From assembly GCA_016873755.1 (NCBI GenBank), contig VGWB01000014.1, positions 1-33,946 of the forward strand: DNA of 33,946 bases, in the 5' to 3' direction. Within the stretch, counting starts at the first letter, position 1. Each line of letters starts with the position of its first letter. Below the pieces are notes generated by a model that was not told where the DNA came from, ran no database searches, and saw only the letters and a program-made list of their open reading frames with translations. The position numbers and the translations under genes were made by a program. The stretch comes from Ignavibacteria bacterium (GTDB taxonomy: Bacteria; Bacteroidota; Ignavibacteria; UBA10030). This document shows, piece by piece, positions 878 through 30,234 of the stretch.

Positions 878-1553
878 GGTTTTGTCTCCTCGGGAGGAAT
901 GATCCAGTGCTCTAGCCATCGATCCCTGTGCTCTCCATAAAGGTCCTGAAAAATCTTGACTGGAGGAGCCCGCTGATCGATGCTTCCTTCAAGGTTACGA
1001 GGAAGCCGCCATACAAGCGCAACGGGAAAGTGAAAACTCTGTGGAGATTGTGTGAAGCGGGGATGGAGAAGAATTTCGAGTTCGAAAAAGGTACGTCATC
1101 GCTGCTTCACGAGCGGACGGAATCGGAAATAATCAAGGTCGATACAAGCTCAGGCAGGGAACGACCCGCGGTCAACATTGATGAGCAGCTGTTGCTGCCT
1201 CTAGGAGCGGCGGGAGGGGCGAGTCCCAAGCGTCCCGATTGAGGAATCAAACTCACCGATGTCCCACCGCACCGAACATGTCCTCTCACTTGATGACCAA
1301 TTGTTGCTTTTTCCTTTTTACCAGGGCCCTCCCCCTCGTCCGTCGTCGCGGCTGTGCCCTAATCCCTAACCGGCCAACCCTTCAACGTGTTTGAGAAAAT
1401 GAGATCACTCAGGATGGAAAACACCCACCTCACCTGAGAGGTGCAGGTTGAGCCTCCTTCCGTTGTCTTTCTGATGTTGTCATCAGATGCGATCAACCAG
1501 CCCGTTGATGTGTGATGAAGATTCGAGTGCATCAAGTTGTGCGAGAATGCTTA
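878..1553. other. Intergenic region with a dispersed element, no convincing gene
   Basis: There are 676 bases between the cargo gene start (877) and the stop of the lipoprotein-barrel gene (1554). The only open frame of note (plus, 928-1242) starts with GTG, lacks a ribosome site and has no recognisable protein character. The region holds one copy of an 83-bp element (975-1057). A small hairpin at 1426-1443 (CACCTC/GAGGTG) has no T tract and is not a clear terminator. The rest shows nothing I can name. Confidence 0.6.
975..1057 (-). repeat. 83-bp upstream element, copy 1
   Basis: It aligns without gaps to 4513-4595 at about 67 of 83 positions by eye. The half 1015-1057 matches 4553-4595 at 42 of 43. 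On the minus strand it ends 97 bases before the ATG of the cargo gene at 877. Copy 2 ends 71 bases before another minus-strand start. The shared distance and orientation suggest a promoter or leader element, but a dispersed intergenic repeat fits equally well. Confidence 0.7.
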
Positions 1554-2936
1554 CTACCATCGGTACGAGACGCCCACGCTCAACTGCGTGAGGAAAATCT
1601 TCTCGTTGCCGAAACTCTGGAAAATCCGGACGGCCGGATCAACCGTCAGGGAGCGAGATACAGGGATTGCAGCATAGAGCCTCGCTGATCCAGCTGGTTC
1701 CGTCGAAGGGCCCTCGGCCGGCTCGAATGTCTCGTAAGTGAAATAGGGCGTCGCAACGGGTACCACCTCATAGCGATCCTTTGCACCTGAAAAAAACAAA
1801 ACCCCAAGTCCGAGCGAGCCATACAATGTTGCTGTCCGGATGTTGCCAAGTTTGATGTCCGCGACTCCTTGTATGCCGTGTCCGAGAAATTCATTCTCAG
1901 CGGCTGACGAACCAACGGGAATTCCTGCATACGACCATTCAATGGTTCCGCCGCTCGGTTCGGATGCCAGAATCTGCACGCTGTATTCAGCCCCGAGCCG
2001 CACTCGCGAATTCATCAGCGACGTACGGAACAGGAGACGTGCCTCCACACCTAATCCTCCAAAACTCCCTTGATCGCCCCAGTCAAAGCGAATCTGGTCG
2101 TTCGGGGAAAAGAATCCATATACTAATGATCCCGACACGGCCGATCTGTTCCAAACACCTTCGTCCGCTACGGTCGGGGTGCTCCGAGTCCCCTCGTCTG
2201 CTCGGGAAACTCCAGGCGCCGAAGGCGCTACCATCGTCCCGCCAAAGAAATCATTTTCAAGATAGACTTTCGCCCGGTTCACAGTCTTGTATAACGCCTT
2301 TGTCAAGTCGAGAAAATCAGGCGGCTTGTCCCACTCTCCCTCTACATCAACCTTGGCGTCTTCCTCGTTCATTTCAACTCCCCATTCAAGGGCGTTCGTG
2401 CGCAGGTTGATGAGCTCGCCTCTTCCCACACAGAACGGCTTTGGCGATTCAAGTGGAATGAACCCGTAGTATTTGCGCGTCGTCCCCCAACGGTCAATTG
2501 AAAGCAGTACAAGGGCGTCAATGCCTTCATCAGCGGCAATCATCCGACAGTCTCGCTCGTGAAAGTCGCCGGAGGCAGTCGGAGTGTACTTCGCAAATTT
2601 CTCCAGATCAATCGGCTTCTCAATGAGCTTCACATTGAATCCCCGCCCCTTCAGATTCTCCCAGAATCTCCGGGCAACGTCGTCAAAGCCGCTCGAATCG
2701 ATCGACTGAAGATGCGCTTCCAGGGTCCCGGTCGCGGCTTTCGCAATCGCTTGGTCGAGCAACCCTCCTCCCTGCCGGTACGTCGCTGCAACAGGGGCTT
2801 TGGCAACTGCGACTCCGATGTTTCGTTCTTTGGTCTGCCAAAAATCACTCTTGAGCGCCAGGTTGGAGGGACCACATCCGCACGCAAGCACAAGCGAGGC
2901 TGACCCGAGGACGACAAACAACAATGGTTTTGACAT
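1554..2936 (-). CDS. Lipoprotein with C-terminal outer-membrane beta-barrel, paralogue of the next gene
   Basis: This protein has 460 residues from the ATG at 2936, which has AAGGAG seven bases upstream; the frame extends further up but without a ribosome site. Residues 1-20 are a lipoprotein signal, with the lipidated Cys in LVLACGCGPS. Residues 20-235 are about three-quarters identical to the adjacent 241-residue lipoprotein (shared blocks LALKSDFWQTKER, MIAADEG, LLSIDRWGTTRKYY, EGEWDKPPDF). A linker with a repeated ADEG motif follows. From about residue 265 to the end is a beta-strand-rich barrel-like region ending in VGVSYRW, a terminal aromatic typical of outer-membrane proteins. The N-terminal layout resembles GNA1162/YajG-type envelope lipoproteins, but I cannot assign a family. 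It likely arose by duplication of the neighbour with barrel fusion, or by barrel loss from the neighbour. Confidence 0.85.
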   Translation of the reverse strand: MSKPLLFVVLGSASLVLACGCGPSNLALKSDFWQTKERNIGVAVAKAPVAATYRQGGGLLDQAIAKAATGTLEAHLQSIDSSGFDDVARRFWENLKGRGFNVKLIEKPIDLEKFAKYTPTASGDFHERDCRMIAADEGIDALVLLSIDRWGTTRKYYGFIPLESPKPFCVGRGELINLRTNALEWGVEMNEEDAKVDVEGEWDKPPDFLDLTKALYKTVNRAKVYLENDFFGGTMVAPSAPGVSRADEGTRSTPTVADEGVWNRSAVSGSLVYGFFSPNDQIRFDWGDQGSFGGLGVEARLLFRTSLMNSRVRLGAEYSVQILASEPSGGTIEWSYAGIPVGSSAAENEFLGHGIQGVADIKLGNIRTATLYGSLGLGVLFFSGAKDRYEVVPVATPYFTYETFEPAEGPSTEPAGSARLYAAIPVSRSLTVDPAVRIFQSFGNEKIFLTQLSVGVSYRW

Positions 2937-3238
2937 GATCGACTCCTTCTTTTTTGCGTTGAGAGCCCGACTCAAAAATGCTGCTCTCCCTTTCGCGACT
3001 TGCGCCAAATGGGTCCTTCGAAGGAGCACTTCGCCCCGCCTTCAGGTGTTCGCGAGCGGCCAGAACAAAACCGCCCGGTCGGGATGCGTTGAGCCTTCGG
3101 ACCGTTGCCACAAGCAACCAAAGAAGAGATAGTAATAGGTTTTGAAGAAATGCTGTTCGGGAAAGCCTCCAGTGAAATTGACACATTTGAGAACAACTTG
3201 TTTCTGAAGCACGACGGAACGACGCGAGCTCAATAGGT
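2937..3238. other. Spacer between duplicated lipoprotein genes
   Basis: These 302 bases contain no plausible gene. A 27-base stretch at 3206-3232 resembles 4008-4034, which lies in the 3' end of the upstream glycine-zipper gene: the first 16 bases are identical and about 7 of the next 10 match. This could be a remnant of the duplication that produced the two lipoproteins. A short palindrome CCTTCGAAGG lies near 3016. No promoter motif could be assigned. Confidence 0.45.
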
Positions 3239-3964
3239 TCAAGGCGACATAGGCTTGGCCGATTTTCCTGCAAAGAAGTCATTCTCCAGAAAGGCTTTTG
3301 CCTTGTCGACCGCTTTGTACAACGCTTTCGTCACCTCTGGGAAATCAGGTGGTTTATCCCACTCTCCTTCTACGTCGACCTTCGACTGATCTTCCTCCAT
3401 TTCAACGCTCCACTCCAGCGCATTCGTGCGGAGGTTGACGAGCTCGCCTCTCGCGACACAGAAGGGCTTTGGAGACTCAAGTGGAATGAAAGCGTAGTAT
3501 TTACGCGTCGTTCCCCAACGATCGATTGAAAGCAGCACGAGGGCATCGACACCTTCATCAGCTGCAATCATTCGGAGGTCTCGTTCATGGTAATCGCCAG
3601 ACGAAGTCGGTGCAAACTTGGGGAGTTTCTCGAGGTCGATCGGCTTCTCAACAAGCTTGACGTTGAATCCTTGCGTTTCCAGGTTCTCCGCAAACTTTTG
3701 GGCGACGTCCTCGAAACTCTTGGAATTAAGCTTCTCAAAATGGGCATCCAGCGTCCCAATTGCAGCTTTCGCAATGGCACGATCGAGCAGGCCCCCTCCT
3801 GCTTGATGCGTCGCGGCAACCGGGGACTTAGCTACAGCGACTCCGATCTTTCGTTCTTTCGTCTGCCAGAAATCACTCTTCAACGCGAGCTTTGACGGCC
3901 CGCACCCGCAGACAAACGCGAGCAGCACAAAGCCGAGTACGGACAAGAACAATGGCCTAGGCAT
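3239..3964 (-). CDS. Lipoprotein of unknown function, paralogue of the barrel-fused lipoprotein
   Basis: This protein has 241 residues, with an ATG at 3964 and AAAGGA six to seven bases upstream. Residues 1-19 are a lipoprotein signal, with Cys in the FVCGCGPS segment. The mature part repeats the first 235 residues of the gene at 1554-2936 but stops at the point where that protein continues into a barrel. The core (VDALVLLSIDRWGTTRKYY, then a GELVNLRTNALEW segment) recalls envelope lipoproteins of the GNA1162/YajG type, where a conserved strand precedes an LRTN-like turn. That link is only inferred. The gene begins 15 bases after the glycine-zipper gene ends, so the two are probably co-transcribed. 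Confidence 0.85.
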   Translation of the reverse strand: MPRPLFLSVLGFVLLAFVCGCGPSKLALKSDFWQTKERKIGVAVAKSPVAATHQAGGGLLDRAIAKAAIGTLDAHFEKLNSKSFEDVAQKFAENLETQGFNVKLVEKPIDLEKLPKFAPTSSGDYHERDLRMIAADEGVDALVLLSIDRWGTTRKYYAFIPLESPKPFCVARGELVNLRTNALEWSVEMEEDQSKVDVEGEWDKPPDFPEVTKALYKAVDKAKAFLENDFFAGKSAKPMSP

Positions 3965-3979
3965 GGCTGATTCCTTTCC

Positions 3980-4441
3980 CTATTGTGATTGAGAAGAATC
4001 CCCTTTCGAAGCACGACGGAACGGAGCGAGGTCCACCGTTTCCCAGGACTGCTCGCCGGCCCCAAGCACAGCTCCTACCACAACGGCGGCGGCGGTGAGA
4101 GCAGCTATCGCGCCGTAATTCACCTTCCCATTTCCCTCCCCCTCCGCGAGGAAGATCGCACACAACCCAATTCCCACGCCGAATCCGCCACCCAGCAAAG
4201 CATACTCGCCTATTTTGGATCCTTTGGAGACATAAAGGGTCTTCACGGAAGAAAGAGGTACCGAGATCGGAACACCGGCCGTCGTCACACCCGAGAACTC
4301 TGTTGACGAAAGAAAACACTTCGTTCCCTCGATCCGCTCGCCGTTTTCTAAGAGCGCGACGAAGTCGGCGTATGCTGACATCGGCCGCTGGGCAACGGCT
4401 AGTTGGGTTATCGTGGCGCACACCAACAAAACGTAACGCAA
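3980..4441 (-). CDS. Small exported protein with glycine-zipper membrane segment
   Basis: This protein has 153 residues. No ATG is available: an in-frame stop at 4451-4453 limits the start, and the first candidate is TTG at 4441, preceded by GGTGAGG about eight bases upstream. Residues 1-17 form a signal peptide ending LAVA. Residues 25-70 (ENGERIEGT... PLSSVKTLYV) look like the small beta domain often seen where a protein defines a quantity 'with respect to' a membrane component; the fold is unassigned. Residues 78-125 hold two Gly/Ala-rich hydrophobic segments (GGGFGVGIGL, AALTAAAVVVGAVLGAG) typical of glycine zippers. It sits immediately upstream of the lipoprotein pair, so a shared envelope role is likely. 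Function is unknown. Confidence 0.75.
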   Translation of the reverse strand: MRYVLLVCATITQLAVAQRPMSAYADFVALLENGERIEGTKCFLSSTEFSGVTTAGVPISVPLSSVKTLYVSKGSKIGEYALLGGGFGVGIGLCAIFLAEGEGNGKVNYGAIAALTAAAVVVGAVLGAGEQSWETVDLAPFRRASKGDSSQSQ

Positions 4442-4512: not shown

Positions 4513-4595
4513 GATCAAATCTTCAGTTGATAGTACGGGGAGGCCGCGACATAAGCGCAACGGGAAGGTGAAAACTCTGTGGAGATTGTGTGAAG
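4513..4595 (-). repeat. 83-bp upstream element, copy 2
   Basis: This is the second copy of the element at 975-1057. It ends 71 bases upstream of the TTG start of the glycine-zipper gene and begins 38 bases after the stop of the propeller gene at 4634. The most conserved part is 4553-4595. It contains no open frame conserved between copies. Confidence 0.7.
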
Positions 4596-4633: not shown

Positions 4634-6604
4634 TTACTTGGCAGCAAGCGGTTTGAAGCGGATATAGTCAAAATCGACATAGCTTCCGGCCGGCGTGAAC
4701 CACCCGCCTCCACTGATAACCAGCTGCTGATCACTCGCGAGTGCTTCCTTCGGGAGCGTACCGGAACGAACGGGAATATAGGCGACGCCATCTTCGCTCA
4801 TCTCGACGGTCAGACGGCTTTCATTCCTTATGAAGCGGGTGTAGGCGGTGTACGGCAGCGGCTCGGTCGTGTCGCCCGGAGGGATATATGAGGGTGCTCT
4901 CGTCGCCTCCTCTTCTACCAGATTACTGAACTGGATTGAGAACGAAGGTCTGTTCCCCCAAGAACGCGAGCGCATAAAGGTTGCAGAAGCCGTGGGAGCA
5001 CCATTCCGGGCAAACGTAACTGAGATCCAGAGATACCTGCTGTCCGCCGGTCGAACAATGCTGTATCTTGCCTTGATTTCCAGCATCCATGAGGTTCCGT
5101 CTAGCTTCCGACGAAGCTGAAGCGCAGGATAGTACCAGTATCCGTCACCGTCGCGAAACATCGCAAATTGTGGTAGAGATGACCAGTATGAGATCGGATC
5201 AAGGCTATATCGAAGGTGCCCCGGATTGTCGATTAGGGAGATGCGCCCAAACGTATGGAAACCGTACTCATTCGGTCCCTGCCACTGCACGACTTTCCAC
5301 CCTGAATCCAGTTTCGAGGCGCTGAAATCATCGTCGAACGAGCTCTCGGCGGGCTTGTCGGCCAGTGCACTTTCTTGTACGATCTCTTGAACTGCTGCTG
5401 CCAGCTCCTTTCTTTCGATCCCAGCTCTCCTCTGTATCTCCGCTTCGAGATCCATTAACAGCACAAAGGGACTGCCTGCTGGCCCTCCGTCGCGCATCGT
5501 GATCGCCATCAAGTGAGCGTCTCTGCCTGCTGCAACGCGAAACAGGATGTGTCGTCCGCCGGGAGACCAAAGCGGCGTGTCCTTATCGCCGCCGATCGAT
5601 TCGGTGACGCTACTCAGAGTCCGATCTGCAATCGAGAACGTGTACACCTGACGAAGGTGCTCCTCCCCCTTTCCCAAATCGAAAACGGCGTATCTTCCAT
5701 CAGGCGAGAAGCGTAGACCGCGTGAGTTCCCGTCAAGGATCGTCAGCGAATCACACTCTCCACTCGCGGCGTTGATCGCTACGAGCATCATGGCATCTTG
5801 AAGGACAGAGTGCTCGCGAGTTGCGACACGGGCAAGGATGCGCTTTCCATCACGTGACCAATCTGACGGGAAAATCATCCAACCGCTGCGCCCCTGAACA
5901 ACCTCCGGCTCGCCGCCTTCGACCGAGACCGTGCGGAGATCTACATACCAACTCTCTCTGTACCAACCGTAAGCGATCTTTTTGCCATCGGGGGCCCAGA
6001 CCTTGTAGTAAGCGAATTCCGGAGATTCGCTCCAGGTCTTATGGGTCAACTGCGTGATCCTCCCAGTCTTCCGGTTTTTCACCACCAGGTTGCCCGTCTC
6101 CCAGTCGGTATGAGCCTCCATCGTTTCATCGGGAGAAATCGCGCCAAGGGGTTCAAGGGCAACGCGCGCGAGGTAGTAGTCGATCATCGCCGTGTAGTCA
6201 GGCATTCTCGCGGAGAGCACTGCAAGACGGGCCCGGGCAGTCCGGACTGCGTCGGAATACTTCGGGAATCGACGCATCACGGTCCGATAGATTTCCAGAG
6301 AGCGCACATCACCTTTCTTCTCGTAGCAGGATGCCAGCCGCAGATGCGTGCAGATGAGGAGGGAGTCGTTTCGCGAGGGCCCATCAAGGATCTGCACATA
6401 GAGTCGTTCCGCCCCTTCGAGGTCGCCCTCTACGTCTTCGCGATACGCCGCCTCCTGCAGAAGTTTCTCCGGTGCGGTCTGACACAGGCAGAGCGAGGAG
6501 ACAATGGTCAGACCAAGAAACAGCCGCCTTGAAGATCGTGCGATCAAGGACAAATTCAACAGTGGCGAGCGGGACATTGGCAGAGCTCTCAATCCAAGAT
6601 TCAT
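4634..6604 (-). CDS. Exported TPR, WD40-like beta-propeller and jelly-roll protein
   Basis: This protein has about 656 residues from the ATG at 6604, one base after the response-regulator stop; a second ATG at 6577 is also possible. A signal sequence (RRLFLGLTIVSSLCLCQ) covers about residues 25-42. Residues 45-130 are TPR-like helices (EGAERLYVQIL, LRLASCYEKKGD, YRTVMRRFP). Residues about 160-410 hold TolB/PD40-type propeller repeats, visible as VWAPDGKKIAYG, DWSRDGKRILAR, RFSPDGRYAVFD and LWSPGGRHILFR. The rest, from FDDDFSASKLDSGW to DFDYIRFKP, resembles the concanavalin-like DUF1349/laminin-G group that binds glycans. It is the last gene of the kinase-regulator operon, so it is probably an accessory or output of that signalling pair. 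Ligand unknown. Confidence 0.85.
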   Translation of the reverse strand: MNLGLRALPMSRSPLLNLSLIARSSRRLFLGLTIVSSLCLCQTAPEKLLQEAAYREDVEGDLEGAERLYVQILDGPSRNDSLLICTHLRLASCYEKKGDVRSLEIYRTVMRRFPKYSDAVRTARARLAVLSARMPDYTAMIDYYLARVALEPLGAISPDETMEAHTDWETGNLVVKNRKTGRITQLTHKTWSESPEFAYYKVWAPDGKKIAYGWYRESWYVDLRTVSVEGGEPEVVQGRSGWMIFPSDWSRDGKRILARVATREHSVLQDAMMLVAINAASGECDSLTILDGNSRGLRFSPDGRYAVFDLGKGEEHLRQVYTFSIADRTLSSVTESIGGDKDTPLWSPGGRHILFRVAAGRDAHLMAITMRDGGPAGSPFVLLMDLEAEIQRRAGIERKELAAAVQEIVQESALADKPAESSFDDDFSASKLDSGWKVVQWQGPNEYGFHTFGRISLIDNPGHLRYSLDPISYWSSLPQFAMFRDGDGYWYYPALQLRRKLDGTSWMLEIKARYSIVRPADSRYLWISVTFARNGAPTASATFMRSRSWGNRPSFSIQFSNLVEEEATRAPSYIPPGDTTEPLPYTAYTRFIRNESRLTVEMSEDGVAYIPVRSGTLPKEALASDQQLVISGGGWFTPAGSYVDFDYIRFKPLAAK

Positions 6605-6605
6605 G

Positions 6606-7292
6606 TTACTCGTGGAACTTGTATCCCACACCACGTACCCCCTGAATGTATCTCGGCTCTGCAGGGTCATCCTCCAGCTTCTTCCGTAGATGTGCAATGT
6701 GCGTGTCAACAGTCCGGTTGTCAACGTACACCTCTTTCCCCCACACCTCATCAAGGATGGCATCACGCGAAAGCACTTCCCCTTTGCTGTTTATCAGGTG
6801 TCGCAGGAGGGCAAACTCCAGGGAGGTGAGGTACACCGGACGATTCCCTTTCCGCACTTCGTATTTCCTGAAATCGATCTCCACGTCGCCAAATCGCGCT
6901 ACTTCAATCCCCTGTCGCGTCTGTTTCACTCGACGCAATATAGCGTTGATGCGTGCGAGGAGCTCCCGCGGGCTAAACGGCTTCGTAACGTAGTCATCTG
7001 CGCCAAGTTCAAGCCCGAGGACCTTGTCAGCCTCTCTGCCTCGCGCCGTGAGCATGAGAATCGGGATGGTGATCCCCTCCTGCCGCAACTGTCTGCATAC
7101 ATCAAAGCCGCTCATACGCGGGAGCATAATATCCAGAACAATGAGGTCATGCCGTCGCTCCTTCGCACGCGACAGACCAGCAAGTCCGTCGCGTGCGGTA
7201 TCGATCTCAAATCCCTCCATCTTCAGGTCATCCTCGAGCCCCATGAGGATGCTTTCGTCATCCTCAATGATGAGAATTCGTTCCGTGTGCAT
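6606..7292 (-). CDS. OmpR/PhoB-family response regulator
   Basis: This protein has 228 residues from the ATG at 7292, which overlaps the kinase 3' end by 29 bases. The frame is open further upstream but that part lies inside the kinase gene. The receiver (residues 5-118) has the acidic pair in IIEDDES, phospho-acceptor Asp54 in VLDIMLP, Thr82 in LTARG and Lys104 in VTKPFSP. The C-terminal winged helix (about 130-226) has the usual YLTSLEFALLRHL, LDEVWG, VDTHIAHLRKKLE and RGVGYKF blocks. It should bind DNA when phosphorylated by the adjacent kinase. Its targets are unknown; the downstream exported protein is one candidate. Confidence 0.95.
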   Translation of the reverse strand: MHTERILIIEDDESILMGLEDDLKMEGFEIDTARDGLAGLSRAKERRHDLIVLDIMLPRMSGFDVCRQLRQEGITIPILMLTARGREADKVLGLELGADDYVTKPFSPRELLARINAILRRVKQTRQGIEVARFGDVEIDFRKYEVRKGNRPVYLTSLEFALLRHLINSKGEVLSRDAILDEVWGKEVYVDNRTVDTHIAHLRKKLEDDPAEPRYIQGVRGVGYKFHE

Positions 7293-9420
7293 AGTCTTCT
7301 GTCCCTGTGGTCGGAAGCTTGATGGTGAAAGTACTCCCGTTTCCAAGCTCGCTCTGCACGGCGATCGTGCCGCCGTGTCCTTCGACAACGTACTTGACGA
7401 TCGTCAGGCCGAGTCCGGTCCCTCTGGTCGCGAGCACATCTTCGTTTGGACCGCGATAGAACCGATCGAAAATTTTCTTGATCTCGTCTTGACGAATTCC
7501 GATGCCCCGATCGATCACCTTGATCGCGACACAACCATCGTCATAGAGCACTTCAACCCTGACCTCCTTCGAAGATCCGGAGAACTTGATCGCGTTGTCC
7601 AGCAGATTGACAAGCGCCTGTGCCAGGGCATCGCGGTCGATCCTTGCGGGCGGCAAAGCTTCAGCCGTCACGAGAGAAATCCTGTATCCCTCATGCTGGA
7701 TCTGATGCTGCATGCGGTCAACCACTTCACTCACGAAGCTGTTGATATCAGCCTCCTCGACATGAAAGACTTTCCTTCCCTCTTCAAACCGTGCAAAGTC
7801 AAGGATATTCTCCACCAAGAGTGACAAACGCTCACTCTGTTCGACCATCGTATCGTAATACCGCTGCCGGCGTTCCTCCGATGGAATCCGACCGCGCTGA
7901 AGCATCTCTGAAAGCTGCCGGATCGAGGTGAGGGGACTCCGAAGCTCGTGCGACACGGTGGAAACGAAATCCGCCTGTAGTTTTGCCAGCTCAACCTCCC
8001 GTGCGATCATCCGCCACATGAGGATGCTCCCGAACACAACGACACCGACAGCGAGTACGAACGCCAGGACATACACACGCCTCCGTGAAGTCAAGAGTTG
8101 GTCGAAGAACGCTGCATCCCTGTGATAGAGGGTGATCGTCCATGCCGGTACGCCGCCGGGGAATTCGACCTGAATTGTTTTCCGCGCGGTTTCGGGGAGT
8201 AATGAGCCCACCGCGCGATCATCACGCTCGTTCCCGACCTGGACGAGGGTGTTTGGTGGCAGGACGAGTTTTTCAAGGAGTGACAAGAGACCGGAGGAGT
8301 CCTGGTCTGCCTTGAGCAAAACCCCCACCATTGAAATCTCTTCGGCGTTTGCACCTTTGGATGGAACAGCAATCACAGAGACATTGCGCGAATTCACCGT
8401 GGTCTTCCATCGTCGGCTGGAGGATGTGCCGTCATGCCTGGTGAGGATGACGCTGAGCAGGTCCGTCAGCACTCTCGCTTCGAGCGCCATCAGTTCTTCA
8501 CTTGATTCGAACGCGCCTTGAAGCCGCTCTTCCGCCTTACGGATACGTTCCTCATATATCGAGGGTAATGTCGCGGGAGGAGCCGAGAGACGAGACCACG
8601 CGGTTTTCAGAGAGCTCAGAATGAACTCACACTGGACTCTGGCCAGGGACCAGGTTCCGTCGAGGAGGTCTTCGTACATCTTCACGATCTCATCCGCGGC
8701 CTGCGAGCTCTCCCCTTCGAACCGCAGACCTTTCAGAAGCTCCAGCCGGGCCGCGAGGTCGACCGGGATACCTCCCGCGATGGAGAGACCTTTGTATCTC
8801 CGGGCGATCTCTCCGTACACGCTGGCCGCCTCATTTGTCTTTTGCGACCGGCTCAACGCGCGGGCATGCGCGAAGAGAACTGTCACTCGATCCTGCGGTG
8901 CCGTAGCCTTCTTGAGAGCCTCCGCATACGCCGCCGACGCACCCTCGAAGTCCCGCGCCTGAAACTCGCGCTGGATGGCCTGAAGGTACTCCTCGTTGGA
9001 TTCTGTCATTGAAAGAGATGTGGGAATCATCTGAGCGTCATTCTCTCTGCGGAACAGCCGGGTAGCGAGAGGAAAGACAAATTGTGTCTTGCTCACAAAG
9101 AAGGGCTCGCCCACCAGAGGGCTTGAGAGTTTGATTCGCTCCGCCATCGACCGAAGGTCTGACGGGTCTTGCCGTCGCTGGCGGTTGAGGAGATCGTCTG
9201 CTGTCTGCTCGATCCGCTGAAGCTCCTGCTCGATCACATTGACGATGGACTGTGCGATTCCTTCGTGCTGCTCGAGGAGATCTCGTTCAGCAGCGGCACG
9301 CTCACTTTGTATCCCGCGAAGTGAGAGATAGGCAAGAAACAGTGAGGGGACGGCAACCGTTAGGAAAAAGAAAACAAGGAGCCTTGTTTTCGTCTTGAGC
9401 TGTTTCACCGTCATCATCAC
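7264..9420 (-). CDS. Membrane histidine kinase with large TPR-like sensor domain
   Basis: This protein has 718 residues; the start is GTG at 9420 or one of two following ATGs, with no strong ribosome site. TM1 is about 13-33 and TM2 about 450-469, leaving an extracytoplasmic domain of some 415 residues. That domain contains TPR-like helices at about 143-215 (REFQARDFEGASAAYAEAL, HARALSRSQKTNEAASVYGEIARRY). The cytoplasmic part has HisKA with His491 in STVSHELRSP, an N box (NLLDNAIKF), G1 (VIDRGIGI), an F box (FDRFYR) and G2 (GTGLGLTIV), so it looks catalytically complete. It heads the operon with the regulator and the TPR/propeller protein. The TPR segment suggests sensing through protein contact rather than a small ligand, which is an inference. 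Confidence 0.93.
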   Translation of the reverse strand: MMMTVKQLKTKTRLLVFFFLTVAVPSLFLAYLSLRGIQSERAAAERDLLEQHEGIAQSIVNVIEQELQRIEQTADDLLNRQRRQDPSDLRSMAERIKLSSPLVGEPFFVSKTQFVFPLATRLFRRENDAQMIPTSLSMTESNEEYLQAIQREFQARDFEGASAAYAEALKKATAPQDRVTVLFAHARALSRSQKTNEAASVYGEIARRYKGLSIAGGIPVDLAARLELLKGLRFEGESSQAADEIVKMYEDLLDGTWSLARVQCEFILSSLKTAWSRLSAPPATLPSIYEERIRKAEERLQGAFESSEELMALEARVLTDLLSVILTRHDGTSSSRRWKTTVNSRNVSVIAVPSKGANAEEISMVGVLLKADQDSSGLLSLLEKLVLPPNTLVQVGNERDDRAVGSLLPETARKTIQVEFPGGVPAWTITLYHRDAAFFDQLLTSRRRVYVLAFVLAVGVVVFGSILMWRMIAREVELAKLQADFVSTVSHELRSPLTSIRQLSEMLQRGRIPSEERRQRYYDTMVEQSERLSLLVENILDFARFEEGRKVFHVEEADINSFVSEVVDRMQHQIQHEGYRISLVTAEALPPARIDRDALAQALVNLLDNAIKFSGSSKEVRVEVLYDDGCVAIKVIDRGIGIRQDEIKKIFDRFYRGPNEDVLATRGTGLGLTIVKYVVEGHGGTIAVQSELGNGSTFTIKLPTTGTEDYAHGTNSHH

Positions 9421-21577: not shown

Positions 21578-21991
21578 CTACTCCCCCATCACTTTCACGA
21601 TTACCCGTTTGCGGCGCTGACCATCAAATTCCGCGTAGTAGATTTGCTGCCACGGGCCGAAATCGAGCTTGCCGTCTGTGACGGGAACGACGACTTCGTG
21701 ATGCATGAGGAGACTTTTCAGGTGCGAGTCCCCATTGGTCTCGCCCGTCCGGTGATGCCGGTAGTTCAGATTGAAGGGCGCCAGCTTCTCCAGCCACTCA
21801 TCGATGTCCTGGATGAGACCCGATTCCGCGTCGTTGACGTAGACGGAAGCCGTGATATGCATCGCAGAAACGAGAATCATCCCCTCTTGGATACCGCTAC
21901 GCTGCAAAATCTGTTCGACGTCCGGCGTGATGTTGACGTATTCGCGATGCTTCTTGGTATTGAACCAGAGATACTCTGTAAGGAATTTCAT
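21578..21991 (-). CDS. yjbQ: YjbQ family (UPF0047) protein
   Basis: This protein has 137 residues, matching the family length. The conserved core is complete: [14 protein letters not shown] at 41-54, [11 protein letters not shown] to about 80, then [19 protein letters not shown] and [14 protein letters not shown]. The clustered His and acidic residues are the family's metal and ligand site. Members have been described as secondary thiamine-phosphate synthases in complementation tests, but true function is unsettled. Its ATG overlaps the TGA of the GH13 gene as ATGA, so translation is coupled to the maltodextrin operon. No thiamine gene is visible, so the operon position may reflect another reaction on a phosphorylated sugar or metabolite, which is speculation. 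Confidence 0.93.
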
Positions 21992-23820
21992 TGCCTTGCT
22001 GCTCCGGAAGTTGGTAGAAGGATCTTGTAGCCGAGAGGATCAACTGAAAGACGAAGCGTTCGTTGACCTGCCAAAAAGCTCATTCCAGAGAAGTACTCGA
22101 TCAACTCACCTGTCACGTCCGGCGGCAGGCTCATTTCCACGGTCTGCGGAGTCTGATCAAAATTGATGATAACGACGACGACATCGCCACCGTACTGCCG
22201 GGCGAAAGAGAACACTTTAGCGCTACCACTGTTCTTCAGCGTCAGGTATTCCCCTCTGCGCAGAGCCGCATGGTCTCTCCGAAGAGCACCCAGCTTCTGA
22301 TAGAGGTCGCGGAAGTCGTGGTTTCCGCGCCAATCGATCCCCACTTTCTCGAACAAATCGAGCTTCTTGTCGTTCCCGGCCTCCTCGCCGTTGTACACCA
22401 ACGGCACACCAGGAAACGTGAAAATCAGCACAGCTGCGGCTTTTGCTCCCTGTCGGCCGTATTTCAGCACGGCAGGCGCATCATAGGCGTTCTTGTCGTG
22501 GTTTGTGTTAAACCGGAGCCGGAGCGACCCCTTCGGGAACCTGTACGATTCCGCCTGCAGGATTTCATCGAATACTGCGACGGGAGTTGTGCCATTGATG
22601 GTCGGTCCGAGCATGTCGTAGACGCTCCAGGAGTACGTCATATCGAACGCTTCGAGGTGATGCTCGGGCAGCGTTCCCTCCGAAATCATCAAGATTGGCT
22701 TGATTTTGTCCAGCTCCTTGCGCGCACGCTCCCAGAAGTCTGTCGGCACCAATTCTGCAACATCACATCGGAATCCGTCGATGCCGATATCACGGACCCA
22801 GTACTTCATCATTTCGATCATGTATTTGCGGAGCTCGTGATGGTTGTAGTTCAGATCGGCCACATCCGTCCAGTCCGCATTTGGTGAAACCAGAGCACCC
22901 TCCGCGTTCGTGGTGAACCACTCAGGGTGCTCCATCACCAGCTTGCAGTCCCACGCGGTATGGTTGGCGACGAGGTCGATGATGATTCTCATTCCCTGGT
23001 CGTGGGCCGCCTTCACAAGAGATTTGAAGTCCTCCAGCGTCCCGAATTCCGGATTCACTTCATAATAGTCTTGCACCGCGTACGGGCTTCCCAAGGTGCC
23101 CTTGCGGTTGAGCTCCCCCACCGGGTGGATGGGCATTAGCCAGATGATGCTGACACCGAGTTCTTTCAGTTCACCCAGCCGGTGCTCGAGAGCCTTAAAC
23201 GTCCCCTCCTGTGAGAATGAGCGGAGATAGACCTCATAAACTACCCCATCGCGGACCCAGTCCGCAGTCGGTCGCGCATCGAGCTCAGCATATTTCGATT
23301 TCAGAAGTTCCTGGACGCGCTCGATCGGAGTAACCGCGACGGTTTTGTAGATTCCGCCCGGGCCGCCGTGATCGTTGACACGCACAACGAGTTCGTTTTC
23401 GCCGCTCTTGGCGACCGTATTATTGATGTCGAAATAGAAGGGCTCGCTGTAGCCGAAATGCACACCAAGTTTTTTCCCGTTGAGCCACACTTCTGCATCG
23501 TCGTCAATCCCACCGAAGAAAAGTGCAACCCGCTGAGTGGTATCTGTGAACGTGAAGGACTTAGCGAACCAGCCGGCTCCGTCGTACGCCTCGAGCCCAT
23601 AGGTGTCCCAGCTCGCCGGAACGTGCACGCTTGACCACCCCGAGCGATCATAACCTTCCGCGAACCATCCCTCCGACAAGCCGACGCCGAGGGAATCTGT
23701 CTTGAAGAGCCATTGTCCTTCAAGCGAGACAGAGGGTTCTTCTTTTAGCGAGCAGGCAGAGGCGAACAATAACGAAACCAGAAGCACGCGGCAAAGAGAC
23801 TCTGCTGTCAGGGAGTTCAT
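21988..23820 (-). CDS. Lipoprotein alpha-amylase (GH13) with N-terminal GH2-like sugar-binding domain
   Basis: This protein has 610 residues from ATG 23820. A lipoprotein signal places the modified Cys at 23 (FASAC). Residues about 30-165 are a jelly-roll domain of the type found in GH2 enzymes ([36 protein letters not shown]). The GH13 barrel spans about 190-530, with region I IIDLVANH and catalytic Asp353 (GFRCDVAE), Glu381 (ISEGTLP) and Asp442 (NTNHDKN). A C-terminal beta domain (about 530-600) ends the protein. It should hydrolyse maltodextrins in the periplasm or on a membrane surface, close to the transporter encoded upstream. Whether it prefers linear, cyclic or branched substrates cannot be told. 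Confidence 0.92.
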
Positions 23821-23887
23821 CGGACATCACCTGCAGTTGATGACGTGTCACATCGGGAAAACTTTTGGTTTTTGTCCGATTTCACGT

Positions 23888-24733
23888 TCAGCCTTTCACA
23901 CTACCCAGAGTGAGGCCGGAAACGAGGTAGCGGCTCAGCATCAAAAAGAGCACAACGACGGGAATCATCACGACAATGGACGCCGCGCCGTAAAGTCCCC
24001 ACTCCGTGCTCATGCTTGATTCAAAGGACTTGAGTCCCACAGGGAGCGTCCAGAGAGTGGTATCTTGCAGGATCTGTGCCGCTACAAGATACTCCGACCA
24101 CGCCGTCATGAATGAAAAGAGCGCCGTGATCACAAGGGCCGGTGCTGCAAGCGGGAGAATGATCTTGTAGAACGCCTTGAACTGTGTACATCCGTCGATA
24201 CGAGCAGCCTCTTCAAGGCTTACCGGAATCGTGTCGTAGTATCCTTTCATCGTCCAGATACAGAACGGAAGGGCCGTTGCGCTGTAGACGATGACGATAC
24301 CCAAATACGTGTTGATCAAACCCAGCTTGATCAGCATGATGTACATCGGCAGGAGGAGCATTGTGGCCGGAAACATTTGCGTGGTGAGCAGACTGAGCAA
24401 ACCGATCCTTCTGCCGAAGAAACGAAATCGCGAGAAGCCGTAGCCGGCCATGGAGGCGAAGATCACCCCGGTGACCGTTACTGCCGCGGACACGAGCGAG
24501 CTATTTCCCATCCATCGGAGAAAATCACGCTCGGTGAACAGCCGGATGTAGTTGGACGCGGCGGCTTGAGCGGGAATGAACTCCAGCGACGTCGACAAGA
24601 GCTGATCACCGGGGCGAAGCGAGATATTGACGACCTGCCAGATCGGGAAGACCGCAATGAGCGCGAACACGATAAGGACCGCGTGCGTCGCCGTGCGCTG
24701 AATGAGTCTTGCTCGTGTAGAGTGGATCGCCAC
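23888..24733 (-). CDS. malG: ABC sugar transporter permease, MalG-type
   Basis: This protein has 281 residues with six predicted helices, the usual MalG size. The first helix is at about 15-36 (AVLIVFALIAVFPIWQV), followed by the periplasmic loop NISLRPGDQLL. The EAA motif that contacts the ATPase is at about 174-193 (EEAARIDGCTQFKAFYKIILP). The C-terminal part shows TLPVGLKSFESSMSTEWGLYGAAS, the block conserved in maltose and multiple-sugar systems. It lies 72 bases downstream of malF on the same strand. The transported sugar is inferred from neighbouring amylases. Confidence 0.93.
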   Translation of the reverse strand: MAIHSTRARLIQRTATHAVLIVFALIAVFPIWQVVNISLRPGDQLLSTSLEFIPAQAAASNYIRLFTERDFLRWMGNSSLVSAAVTVTGVIFASMAGYGFSRFRFFGRRIGLLSLLTTQMFPATMLLLPMYIMLIKLGLINTYLGIVIVYSATALPFCIWTMKGYYDTIPVSLEEAARIDGCTQFKAFYKIILPLAAPALVITALFSFMTAWSEYLVAAQILQDTTLWTLPVGLKSFESSMSTEWGLYGAASIVVMIPVVVLFLMLSRYLVSGLTLGSVKG

Positions 24734-24805
24734 GATTCCTGGAGATTGCTCTTTTCTATAAGGTTCCTTACAAAAAGCGGACGTTAGCGACAGTCGGCCG
24801 CCCGG

Positions 24806-25693
24806 TCAGTATGCCGCCTCCGTGGCCCTTGATTGTCTCACGAAGACCATGCTCAGCACAAGGAGAAGAAAGAAAATGACAAGCGACAGTGCCGCTGCAT
24901 AGCTGAAGCTGTAGAAGTTGAACGCGGCCTTATACACGAACGAAACAAGAATGTGCGTGTTGTCCGAAGGCTCTCCCCCGTTGCTGACGAGCCAGACGAT
25001 GTTCACATTGTTGAACGTCCAAATCGTGCCAAGCGTGACCGCGGGGATCATCACGGGACGGATCAGGGGGAGCGTTATCGTCCGCAGTTTGTGCCACCAC
25101 GATGCGCCGTCGATATCCGCTGCTTCGTAAAGCTCTTGCGGTATGCTCTGGAGTACACCGAGAGCGACGACCATCATGAACGGGAACCCCAACCACACGT
25201 TTGTCAGGATGCATGCAAGGAAAGCTTCCAGTGGACTCCTGAGCCATTCAACCGCTGGAAGACCGAGGTATTTGGTGATGATCAGGTTTATCGATCCGTA
25301 CTCATAGTTGAACATCCCTCGCCACGTCAGGGCCACAATGTATTGCGGTATAGCCCAGGGAAGAATCAGCAGTGCGCGATACATCGATCGGCCCCTGATC
25401 GCCTGGTTCAGAAGCAAGGCCAGGAAAACGCCAATCACGACGTGAAAGAAGACATTTGCGAGGGTCCACACAACCGTTTTCCCGAAGACCGCATAGAAGT
25501 CGGGCTGTGTCGGTTCTGCAAAGATCTTCACAAACTGCCGCAGCCCGATGATCTGCCAATCCTGGATCTTGTTGAGATTCATGTTCGCGAACGCGAGCAC
25601 CACGTTGTACGCGAACGGGTAGAAGACCACCGCCGCCAGCAAAACGAACGATGGAACCACAAGAAAGCCTATGAAGAGCCTTGTGCGATTCAA
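24806..25693 (-). CDS. malF: ABC sugar transporter permease, MalF-type
   Basis: This protein has about 295 residues from TTG 25693, which overlaps the preceding TGA as TTGA. A GTG at 25738 is in frame and adds 15 residues encoded by low-complexity sequence of the upstream gene; neither start has a ribosome site. Six helices are visible, the first at about 8-30 (FIGFLVVPSFVLLAAVVFYP). The EAA motif lies at about 190-208 (ELYEAADIDGASWWHKL). The C-terminal NNVNIVWLVSNGGEPSDNT segment is typical of maltodextrin permeases. Its original translation start was probably altered by the inserted four-helix-bundle gene. Confidence 0.88.
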   Translation of the reverse strand: MNRTRLFIGFLVVPSFVLLAAVVFYPFAYNVVLAFANMNLNKIQDWQIIGLRQFVKIFAEPTQPDFYAVFGKTVVWTLANVFFHVVIGVFLALLLNQAIRGRSMYRALLILPWAIPQYIVALTWRGMFNYEYGSINLIITKYLGLPAVEWLRSPLEAFLACILTNVWLGFPFMMVVALGVLQSIPQELYEAADIDGASWWHKLRTITLPLIRPVMIPAVTLGTIWTFNNVNIVWLVSNGGEPSDNTHILVSFVYKAAFNFYSFSYAAALSLVIFFLLLVLSMVFVRQSRATEAAY

Positions 25694-26154
25694 TGTTGTA
25701 TGTTGTAGGTAGTGATGCTGTACGTTCTCCGGGCGCACTCGAGGAGGGCTGACCGCGGTTCGGAGACAACTATGACTGGTTTCGCTGTGCCCGCACCCGC
25801 CGCAGATACCCTGATCAGTCCATAGGTGATGCGCGCGACAACTGAAGCAAGCTCGTAAGCCTCTTGAAAATCCCTGTCGGTTATGTACTGCTGGTCGTGC
25901 GCAACGTAGAGCTGGCTCTTCACCTCCGACGTTGAGCGCCGGGCGTATACCAGAAACCTGATGAACTCCGCCTTCGATTCTGAGTCAAACCCCTCTGCGA
26001 TATTCGAGGTTACCGAAATCGCAGCTCTTCTGACTTGATCCCTGAGCGAGAAATCCCTGGAGAATTTCTGACGATTCGACATTCCGTAAATGCGGTTAAC
26101 GAGCTTTCGACCTTCCTTCCACGCATCCAAATCCTCAAAGCACATGATTTTCAT
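25690..26154 (-). CDS. Four-helix-bundle protein (23S rRNA intervening-sequence type)
   Basis: This protein has 154 residues from ATG 26154, with a perfect GGAGGAGG upstream. The first 120 residues match the family: FEDLDAWKEGRKLVNRIYG, SLRDQVRRAAISVTSNIAEGF, EFIRFLVYARRSTSEVKSQLY. The last 30 or so, including TTYNIQH, read through flanking low-complexity DNA and are probably not functional. These proteins occur inside 23S rRNA intervening sequences and as small dispersed cassettes; their role is unclear. The gene sits between the binding protein and MalF genes of a transporter operon, where it does not belong functionally, and its end overlaps the malF start. It is best read as a recent insertion. 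Confidence 0.9.
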   Translation of the reverse strand: MKIMCFEDLDAWKEGRKLVNRIYGMSNRQKFSRDFSLRDQVRRAAISVTSNIAEGFDSESKAEFIRFLVYARRSTSEVKSQLYVAHDQQYITDRDFQEAYELASVVARITYGLIRVSAAGAGTAKPVIVVSEPRSALLECARRTYSITTYNIQH

Positions 26155-26260
26155 CGATTCCTCCTCCGTTTGATACCGGTCTTGATTTGAGCCTTCTTAA
26201 CTTTCCGTTCAGGAATAACGCACTCAAGATGTCAATCCTGGACACACACAACTTACAACC
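25694..26260. mobile_element. Probable IVS-like cassette with imperfect inverted flanks
   Basis: The four-helix-bundle gene is bracketed by TGTTGTATGTTGTAGG (25694-25709) and, on the other strand, GGTTGTAAGTTGTGTG (26245-26260). Aligned, these match at about 12 of 16 positions. Elements carrying this gene family in 23S rRNA are also flanked by pairing ends. The low complexity of the flanks means that chance similarity cannot be excluded. No target-site duplication was identified. Confidence 0.45.
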
Positions 26261-26284
26261 ACCACTCCTACAGCCTATTGGTTG

Positions 26285-27568
26285 CTACTCATTCATCTCC
26301 TTAATCTTTCGCACCGCGAGCGCCTGCATTTCCCTCGCCGCCGCTTCAGGCGTCTTTGATCCACCCATCACTGCCTGATAGCCCGGGCGCATCGCGTCCC
26401 ACACCGCGCGCATCTCGGGCACGACCGGCATCGGTTTCCCCCGTGAGATTTGGAGCAGGGAGTTCTGCACGATCTGGTTCGACAGGATCTCGGGATCACG
26501 GTACAGCGCCTTTCTCGTCGGTGCAGTATTGAGAGCCCTCACGGTCTCCATCTGGCTCTCTGCCGAGAGGAGAAACTTCAGCACGTCAAGAACGAGTGCG
26601 ATTTTTTCCTCGGGTACATTCACGTTGACCGAATAACCCTTTGGCGAGGTCATGGGTGCACACCAGAGACCCGTGGCCGTGATTCTTGGGAGCGGTGCTA
26701 TGCCAAGATCGATCCCCCTCTGCCGATAACCCGCCCAGGACCAATCACCATTGATCAGCATAGCCGCTTTCCCATCCTTGAAGAGCGCATCTGCGATTTC
26801 GTAATCCGCCTCAAAAGGGATGATCTTCTCCTTGTCTCGGAGTTCGCGGATGAAATTCAATGCGTCGATCATCGCCCGGTTGTCCAGTGACGGGGTCACG
26901 CCATCCTCAGCAAAGACCCATCCGCCAAAGCCGGTGTAGAACGGAATGAAGAAGAACGGCTCGATGTAGTTCCACGTCAGGCCGTAAACATTTGGCCGAC
27001 CCGCCGTGTAACCATGCATATCCTGAATTCTCCTGCTGAGCTCGATCAGCTCGAAGTCCGTCTGCGGCGGAATTTGGACGTATTTCTTGTTATAGACAAG
27101 CGCAAGGTGGTTGCCGATCTTATCGGCGACCTGGTAAAGATGCCCCTTGTACCAGAGGAGTGATGTCGTGTCAAAGTCAGAAAGGTACGATGCCGCCAGG
27201 AGGTCCTCGAGCGGCCTGATGCTCTTCGTTGCCTCGTATACACCGACCGGATCGGACGGGCCGTACACGAAATCCGGTCCCTGACCCGCGAGCGCCGCCA
27301 CTACGAATCCGCTTCTCAGAACCTCGGTCTCTTTGAACAATTCCTCAATTGTGATGCCGGGGTGTCTTTGCTCATATCGCGCAATCTGCCGTTGAAGCAC
27401 ACCCCGTTCGTCGGGCCTCATCTGATGCCAGATGACCACTCGATTAGGATTGTCACGGTGACCGGCACAGCCGGACGAGGCCATAATGAGAGAGGCAAGG
27501 GCGAAAAGGTAGGAACCAGATCCTCCAATAATACAGTATGCGTAAGGGCCTAATCTCTTTGTTTTCAA
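26285..27568 (-). CDS. Lipoprotein sugar-binding protein of ABC transporter (MalE-like)
   Basis: This protein has 427 residues from TTG 27568, the only early candidate, 14 bases after the GH57 stop; no ATG or strong ribosome site is available. The signal ends in a lipobox with Cys34 (MASSGCAG). The mature part follows the family 1 solute-binding layout: VVIWHQM, ITIEELFKETEVL, AGQGPDFVYGPSD, LALVYNKKYV, DALFKDGKAAMLINGDWSW and the C-terminal AAAREMQALAVRKIKEM helix. It would deliver maltodextrins to the MalF/MalG permease. Lipid anchoring in a didermic cell probably places it on the outer face of the inner membrane. The binding specificity is inferred from the gene neighbourhood. Confidence 0.9.
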   Translation of the reverse strand: MKTKRLGPYAYCIIGGSGSYLFALASLIMASSGCAGHRDNPNRVVIWHQMRPDERGVLQRQIARYEQRHPGITIEELFKETEVLRSGFVVAALAGQGPDFVYGPSDPVGVYEATKSIRPLEDLLAASYLSDFDTTSLLWYKGHLYQVADKIGNHLALVYNKKYVQIPPQTDFELIELSRRIQDMHGYTAGRPNVYGLTWNYIEPFFFIPFYTGFGGWVFAEDGVTPSLDNRAMIDALNFIRELRDKEKIIPFEADYEIADALFKDGKAAMLINGDWSWAGYRQRGIDLGIAPLPRITATGLWCAPMTSPKGYSVNVNVPEEKIALVLDVLKFLLSAESQMETVRALNTAPTRKALYRDPEILSNQIVQNSLLQISRGKPMPVVPEMRAVWDAMRPGYQAVMGGSKTPEAAAREMQALAVRKIKEMNE

Positions 27569-27582
27569 GGAATTAACCGCTT

Positions 27583-29802: not shown

Positions 29803-29896
29803 TGTTTTCGATCAGCCTTCGTGTACTGGAGTTCAGAGTGTTGGACCCGTGCTGTTTCGATCTCGCGGCGACTATAAGCCTTCTCAATAATCGCTT

Positions 29897-29973
29897 GTGA
29901 TTCCCGCCGGTCTTAGGCAGGCATCCAGACACTGCGATGTTCTGGATTCCGTCTAGAAATCCGACGGAATGAC
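29897..29973. repeat. 77-bp palindromic intergenic repeat
   Basis: Its ends are GTGATTCCCGCC and, inverted, GTCATTCCGTCG. Inside are two alternative stems: ATCCAGA/TCTGGAT (29923-29947) and ATTCCGTC/GACGGAAT (29946-29970). This is the layout of the widely dispersed 'ATTCCCGC...GGAATCCAG' intergenic repeats of many environmental genomes. A single copy is in this window. Confidence 0.6.
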
Positions 29974-30137
29974 TTTTCTCTTTGAGCGCCCTCAATATAC
30001 GCACAGATGAGGTAAAACGGAATGTAGTTCGCCTCTTCACCGCGCCTAGTGCCACCCTCCCAAAAGAAATATCGTGTTCGTGTATCTATGGTTCCTAACG
30101 CAGAGGTCGTTGGCATTCTCACTCTGCTGCGGTCCTC

Positions 30138-30160
30138 CCCGCCTGAATGCCGCAGGCGGG
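30138..30160. repeat. GC-rich hairpin repeat
   Basis: An 8-bp perfect stem (CCCGCCTG/CAGGCGGG) closes a seven-base loop, and is followed by another CAGG unit. This motif is a common intergenic dispersed palindrome. It has no T tract on either side, so terminator function is doubtful. Confidence 0.6.
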
Positions 30161-30212
30161 CAGGTGCGGCTCTGCGTCAAAACTACAAGATCATTTGTCG
30201 GGAACGGCACTA

Positions 30213-30229
30213 GCTGGTGTGGCACCAGC
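30213..30229 (-). terminator. Possible weak terminator of the secreted amylase gene
   Basis: A perfect 7-bp stem (GCTGGTG/CACCAGC) with a three-base loop begins six bases after the stop on the minus strand. The sequence beyond it is not T-rich, so intrinsic termination would be inefficient. Confidence 0.35.
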
Positions 30230-30234
30230 AAGTG

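Follow-up and report, generated by a model that had tools for sequence, protein, structure and literature searches.

Paralogous lipoproteins, one with a barrel-like tail, and their probable history of duplication and deletion in an Ignavibacteria bacterium

The stretch of DNA analyzed here, referred to as the window, is one entire contig (VGWB01000014.1; 33,946 bases) of the draft genome of an Ignavibacteria bacterium (3.97 Mb in 376 contigs). Three consecutive genes on its minus strand encode an exported glycine-zipper protein (GZ), a lipoprotein (LP1) and a paralog of this lipoprotein that is extended by a barrel-like C-terminal domain (LP2-barrel); an earlier sequence-only reading had singled them out, and the list of open reading frames (ORFs) confirms all three at the positions it gave. 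Profile comparisons lead us to conclude that the lipoprotein (LP) domain is distantly related to the GNA1162-like lipoproteins, a known meningococcal family, without being a member of PF05643. The simplest history that we infer is that LP1 is derived, a unit of GZ and LP-barrel having been duplicated in tandem and both copies having been long selected before a younger deletion. The locus is tentatively read as a duplicated, partly eroded one for an outer-membrane-anchored, GNA1162/PelC-like periplasmic module, of which LP1 would be the barrel-less partner.

Two selected paralogs and the fossil between them

Over 241 residues LP1 and LP2 share 73% identity, a figure that rises to 77% for the mature domain. 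Their divergence at nonsynonymous and synonymous sites is 0.13 (dN) and 1.7 (dS, near saturation), respectively, and this dN/dS of about 0.08 shows that both are selected coding genes. The proposal of an envelope cluster in which a lipoprotein stands beside its barrel-extended paralog is supported, the barrel itself being predicted. An N-terminal lipoprotein signal, a feature of GNA1162-like proteins, is present in LP1, in LP2 and in the ortholog of the related genome G031: the lipobox reads ...FVCGC GPS (VCGC) in LP1 and, by eye, ...LVLACGC GPS (ACGC) in LP2, and has the textbook form LAGC in G031. For LP2, the ATG at 2936 is the likely start, as it gives a lipoprotein signal peptide, rather than the GTG at 3029 of the ORF list.

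Among 100 relatives, matches to the LP domain at E<=0.01 were obtained in 8 genomes, 4 of which are real: the window's own genome, G027, G029 and G031 (GenBank contigs DOWV01000387, JACVXU010000364 and QYQB01000020 for the latter three, respectively). The weak matches in G018, G026, G028 and G030 were set aside because they lay within or beside regions of RpoN, S41 protease and LysS. Each of the three relatives has a single LP copy with a barrel behind it, and none has a stand-alone copy. A GZ homolog (56% identical) adjoins the fused form in G027, the only relative of the three with GZ beside LP, and the fused form of G031 lies behind another small lipoprotein. The idea of the trio as a conserved unit is therefore not supported, since the order GZ, LP1, LP2-barrel was found in none of these three relatives with the LP domain. 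In a tree, LP1, LP2 and the G027 copy form an unresolved trio, about equally far apart and with similar branch lengths (0.13 for LP1 and 0.13 for LP2).

Immediately behind LP1, 54 nt that correspond to the GZ 3' end are 72% identical to positions 3989-4042. The local alignment score of this GZ fossil is 43, whereas none of 200 single-base shuffles exceeds 25, and tblastn recovers GZ residues 134-151 (E 2.9e-4). A barrel remnant was also sought between LP1 and LP2; the best tblastn match, to the G031 barrel, had an E value of 0.029 and was not counted. The presence of only fused forms in the relatives, together with the GZ fossil behind LP1, points to the duplication of a GZ plus LP-barrel unit followed by deletion of the first barrel.

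Several points weigh against this history or restrict it. The G029 contig starts inside the LP domain. The G027 copy is incomplete, with N in place of the bases that separate GZ from LP-barrel and a contig end within the barrel. The fossil is 72-78% identical while the synonymous sites of LP1 and LP2 are near saturation, and the deletion must thus be much younger than the duplication. Furthermore, a stand-alone form exists in genomes that are presumably Weeksellaceae-like, an assignment made from gene content, and the statement that the fused form came first is therefore limited to the window's own lineage. The LP domain profile detects 2 of 294 genomes of the class (the window's own and G027) and 2 of 395 of the phylum (its own and G365). 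The G365 match is a stand-alone lipoprotein of 224 aa with 22% identity to LP1 along its length (pairwise E 3e-17), and stand-alone homologs occur in 13 of the 149 genomes around G365. Seven of these 13 loci were viewed, and none has GZ or a barrel alongside. In five of the seven (L037, L040, L041, L043 and L045), the stand-alone homolog follows an SPFH/band-7 gene, the Pfam name being taken from one of these loci; a functional link between the two genes is possible.

The lipoprotein domain and the barrel-like domain

Scans of GZ, LP1 and LP2-barrel against Pfam and NCBIfam gave no match of note for any of them. The relationship to GNA1162 emerged from hhalign comparison of an LP domain profile of 15 rows (window-type and Weeksellaceae-type) with a PF05643 profile of 9 rows, members of PF05643 having been found in 10 of 306 genomes searched. 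With signal peptides included, the comparison gave Prob 94.5 and E 7e-8. The mature parts alone scored 36.9 (P 6.8e-5), the aligned core beginning at the second helix and reaching the "LVDLKTG..LW" strand; by comparison, none of 40 column shuffles scored above 17.5, and the reversed profile and CsgG gave 16.1 and 15.6, respectively. The LP domain is considered a relative and not a filed member because Pfam's own PF05643 model missed it: LP1, LP2 and the 15 profile rows gave no PF05643 hit up to E 10, a search in which the HMMER filters drop most matches above 0.1. CsgG (PF03783) was rejected as parent family, with no Pfam hit and hhalign Prob of 1.4 and 0.4; at this depth, GNA1162 and CsgG profiles did not match each other either (Prob 1.5). 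PDB sequence matches of the LP profile were taken as chance, the best being a designed binder over 34 positions (E 0.0049).

The domain probably has a TolB/CsgG-type alpha/beta fold, with a looser relationship to the TolB_N/CsgG/LpoB/PelC class than to GNA1162. Structure prediction returned a low-confidence model for it (pLDDT 44.5, pTM 0.45), with which Foldseek found no match at E<=0.001 and placed LpoB (4q6z) at rank 42. VIA-align with the same low-confidence model matched PelC at Z 5.7 (root mean square deviation 5.3, 99 aligned) and Z 5.6, and FlgT at Z 5.5 (root mean square deviation 4.9, 116 aligned), values in a range, under 8, that can be chance. Brix proteins and tRNA synthetases, which from their titles we read as having anticodon-binding-type folds, made up most of its list. 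GNA1162 (4hrv) and LpoB are absent from the VIA-align rows, which says nothing against either.

The C-terminal ~215 residues of LP2 have a homolog that forms an exported protein by itself, encoded on another contig of the same genome, C147 (30% identity, E 4e-16, pairwise), and a barrel-only homolog is also present in G017; the stand-alone homolog carries an export signal. All five barrel homologs end in G-x-x-Y-x-W, a C-terminal aromatic beta-signal, presumably for BAM. Together with the export signal and the pattern of alternating residues, this suggests that the C-terminal domain of LP2 is an outer-membrane beta-barrel of roughly eight strands. The barrel parts of the five homologs matched none of the Pfam families, and a PDB sequence search with the barrel part gave no match of note.

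These assignments face evidence of the opposite sign. The GNA1162 signal needs the pooled rows, as window-type and Weeksellaceae-type rows alone reach only Prob 1.9 and 2.1, and GNA1162 had been picked for comparison by its motif, two families (CsgG and GNA1162) having been tried. A structure of good confidence was obtained neither for the LP domain nor for LP2-barrel; the model of the whole LP2-barrel, with pLDDT 32.9 overall and about 20 in the barrel region, was not used. By a crude strand counter, the window's barrel does not stand above its shuffles, 55 of 200 of which reach its score; for the four homologs, 11, 13, 1 and 18 of 200 shuffles do so, the 1 in 200 being the C147 protein.

The genomic setting of the locus

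The features of the locus are listed in Table 1. Upstream of the trio and on the same strand lie genes for a histidine kinase (HK), an OmpR-type response regulator (RR) and a PD40/TPR-like protein.

Table 1. Positions of the three genes, their parts and their neighbors in the window
Feature	Positions	Strand	Remarks
GZ	3980-4441	(-)	ORF list; 153 aa, exported
LP1	3239-3964	(-)	ORF list; 241-aa stand-alone lipoprotein, distantly GNA1162-related domain, without barrel
LP2-barrel	1554-2936	(-)	ORF list; 460 aa from ATG; lipoprotein domain and C-terminal barrel-like domain
LP2 mature lipoprotein domain	2241-2870	(-)	77% identical to LP1
LP2 barrel-like domain	1554-2201	(-)	C-terminal end SVGVSYRW; homologous to the C147 stand-alone exported protein
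GZ fossil (3' end of second GZ gene)	3187-3240	(-)	Nucleotide identity and tblastn; immediately behind LP1
Direct repeat R2, 83 nt	4513-4595		71 nt upstream of GZ start
Direct repeat R1, 83 nt	975-1057		97 nt upstream of next minus-strand gene (start 877)
PD40/TPR-like exported protein	4634-6766	(-)	Upstream neighbor
OmpR-type response regulator	6606-7388	(-)	Neighbor
Sensor histidine kinase	7264-9420	(-)	Neighbor

By eye, the N-terminal part of GZ is a small beta domain; it is followed by two glycine-rich hydrophobic stretches, which begin near residues 80 and 107. Distant relatives of ~28% identity are found at seven loci, in six other genomes and as a paralog in G027. Within wide flanks (6 of the 7 loci), HK and RR genes homologous to those of the window lie near the distant relatives of G018, G027 and G029, an RR gene lies ~6 kb away in G011, and neither is present in G002 and G019; because response regulators are common, this proximity is only suggestive. 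In five of the seven loci (L021-L024 and L027), the distant GZ relative adjoins an exported gene with the ERNLGGPRLGVTY motif, and neither the distant GZ family nor the ERNLGGPRLGVTY family has a clear Pfam name.

The operon to which the LP-barrel or barrel gene belongs in G027, in G031 and on contig C147 is headed by a common gene pair, which consists of a regulator-like gene with no Pfam hit and a gene for an FG-GAP-repeat membrane protein. This pair was seen at L036 (2285-4849, contig C147), L012, L013 and L084-L088, and the N-terminus of the membrane protein is zinc-finger-like. Other genomes have the same operon heads, followed by other and changing envelope cargo, and the regulator-like gene has relatives, frequently several per genome, in 34 of the 61 genomes. 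Judging from the HxxxCxxC-like N-terminus, it may be guessed that the pair is a sigma/anti-sigma pair, perhaps of an undescribed type.

The direct repeats R1 and R2, which flank the trio, are 81% identical, and a core of 41 nt matches at 40 of 41 positions. A 33-nt core has two copies in the genome and none in 40 relatives; the repeats have no match in Rfam and their folding is not unusual (z -0.95 to -0.01). They are possibly a shared regulatory element. The next minus-strand gene downstream (1-877) ends in an NYPNPFNP-type sorting tail, as do BNR-repeat cargo proteins of the related operons. Elsewhere in the window (21988-33120), the ORF list by eye contains an ordinary-looking cluster of alpha-amylase-like enzymes and a sugar ABC transporter. 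Literature searches retrieved no description of the GZ/LP1/LP2-barrel cluster, and searches of viral contigs and plasmids revealed no relatives.

Possible function and comparison with known systems

The evolutionary story is fairly clear, and the function of the cluster is a matter of inference. In the favored reading, the LP domain would hang under the outer membrane, held in LP2 and its nearby relatives by an N-terminal lipid and a C-terminal barrel anchor. The tandem duplication of [GZ + LP-barrel] and a later deletion that took out the first barrel and all but the end of the second GZ gene would have left LP1 as a lipid-only copy. The LP domains may self-associate as PelC and CsgG do, and LP1 and LP2-barrel may co-assemble, so that the barrel would fix the assembly in the membrane; GZ would be a small self-associating membrane partner. 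The barrel is more plausibly an anchor than a pore for transport, since a barrel of eight strands would have no usable channel. Regulated like other envelope functions, the module would serve the outer membrane alone, either to maintain the envelope or to assemble surface structures. A more daring version, to which we give little credence, is that LP1 and LP2-barrel form a mixed ring or patch with barrels on only a minority of its subunits, so that an assembly of the PelC/CsgG class is self-pinned and the LP1 made by the deletion sets the ratio. If true, this would be a new way of building an outer-membrane lipoprotein assembly, with the barrel-tailed flavobacterial CsgG as an independent parallel.

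Among the alternatives, the least easily set aside, although unlikely, is that LP1 is a decaying duplicate without a function of its own and that GZ and LP-barrel alone matter. The truncation and the GZ fossil are in keeping with it, as is the lack of a stand-alone copy in all three relatives. However, the reading frame, signal peptide and lipobox of LP1 are intact, its branch equals that of LP2 and its dN/dS is as low as given above, to which it may be objected that the loss of the barrel is too recent for visible decay.

That the locus is a secretion or polysaccharide-export station, with a PelC- or CsgG-like ring of LP1 under LP2 barrels and GZ as gate or cap, is improbable. PelC dodecamers are among the fold matches, and PMC12141448 describes twelve PelC lipoproteins that form a ring mounted on the PelB barrel; CsgG was also found in 19 of the 40 genomes around G365, and its long forms are read as having a C-terminal barrel-like domain. 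Nevertheless, the barrel, at about 215 aa, appears by sequence too small, export genes such as CsgE, CsgF or Pel were not recognized beside the trio, the CsgG profile comparison is at noise, and the fused form of G031 has neither GZ nor a stand-alone copy.

Just as improbable is a sensing module in which the outer-membrane LP-barrel signals the state of the envelope to neighboring regulators, namely, the head pair in the relatives and the histidine kinase in the window. The sharing of operons between head pair and LP-barrel or barrel genes in three contigs, and the HK, RR and PD40 genes that precede the trio, would agree with this. The same heads, however, carry varied envelope cargo elsewhere, which makes targets likelier than sensors, and the head pair of G025 has no LP or barrel gene behind it.

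The sequence-only reading had suggested a two-membrane device; such a device would place LP-barrel in the outer membrane and GZ in the inner one. This is very improbable: the two hydrophobic segments of GZ fit either membrane, but none of GZ, LP1 and LP2-barrel has a periplasm-spanning segment, the cluster lacks an inner-membrane or periplasm-spanning partner, and GZ stands beside LP in only 2 of 4 genomes (the window's own and G027; G029 cannot be judged). The notion that the three genes form one device is likewise not supported.

The earlier statement that no described system with this make-up was recognized is not supported, given the distant GNA1162 relationship and the same layout in flavobacterial CsgG. 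What that reading named as its refutation has in part come up: the domain is distantly related to GNA1162, whose usual neighbors are CsgG and DUF4810, and the gene order is absent from the three relatives. An unassigned lipoprotein family of the Bacteroidota is now distantly tied to the GNA1162 group, itself of unknown function. Moreover, the LP domain is seen alone, fused to a barrel and, apparently through deletion, un-fused again. Barrel-like tails occur on two lipoproteins of like layout without detectable relation, LP2 and flavobacterial CsgG, and the idea that C-terminal barrels serve in general to fix periplasmic modules in the outer membrane thereby becomes testable.

Four known groups invite comparison. 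The GNA1162-like proteins (PF05643; structure 4HRV) share the N-terminal lipoprotein signal and, by profile-profile comparison, a related core (helix, strand, ...ADAVL..., [WY]G, ...LVDLKTG..LW), but the LP domain falls below the Pfam model and LP2 is fused to a barrel. GNA1162 genes have CsgG and DUF4810 as neighbors, confirmed by Pfam at L092 and L096, alike by eye at L089 and not so at L097 (4 of 10 loci viewed), whereas the window's trio has neither beside it, the LP genes having GZ, PD40, RR and HK genes as neighbors. A similarity of GNA1162 to TolB and LptE is reported in PMC6497663, where it is taken as a hint at transport. The CsgG of flavobacterial curli operons has, as read from 12 aligned proteins, the same succession of lipobox, alpha/beta domain and C-terminal barrel-like domain in 456-463 aa, as compared with 460 aa, although neither domain is detectably related in sequence to that of LP2-barrel. 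In these proteins (L053-L064), the barrel-like domain has ~180 residues, and curli-type genes (CsgF/CsgE by eye) adjoin. In the PelC/PelB pair, an outer-membrane lipoprotein of possibly the same broad fold class likewise acts on a barrel; the two are, however, separate proteins with a large barrel, no Pel genes were recognized at the trio, and the fold match is weak. The stand-alone lipoproteins of the Weeksellaceae-like genomes are homologous across the whole domain (19-27% identical) but differ in having neither GZ nor a barrel nearby.

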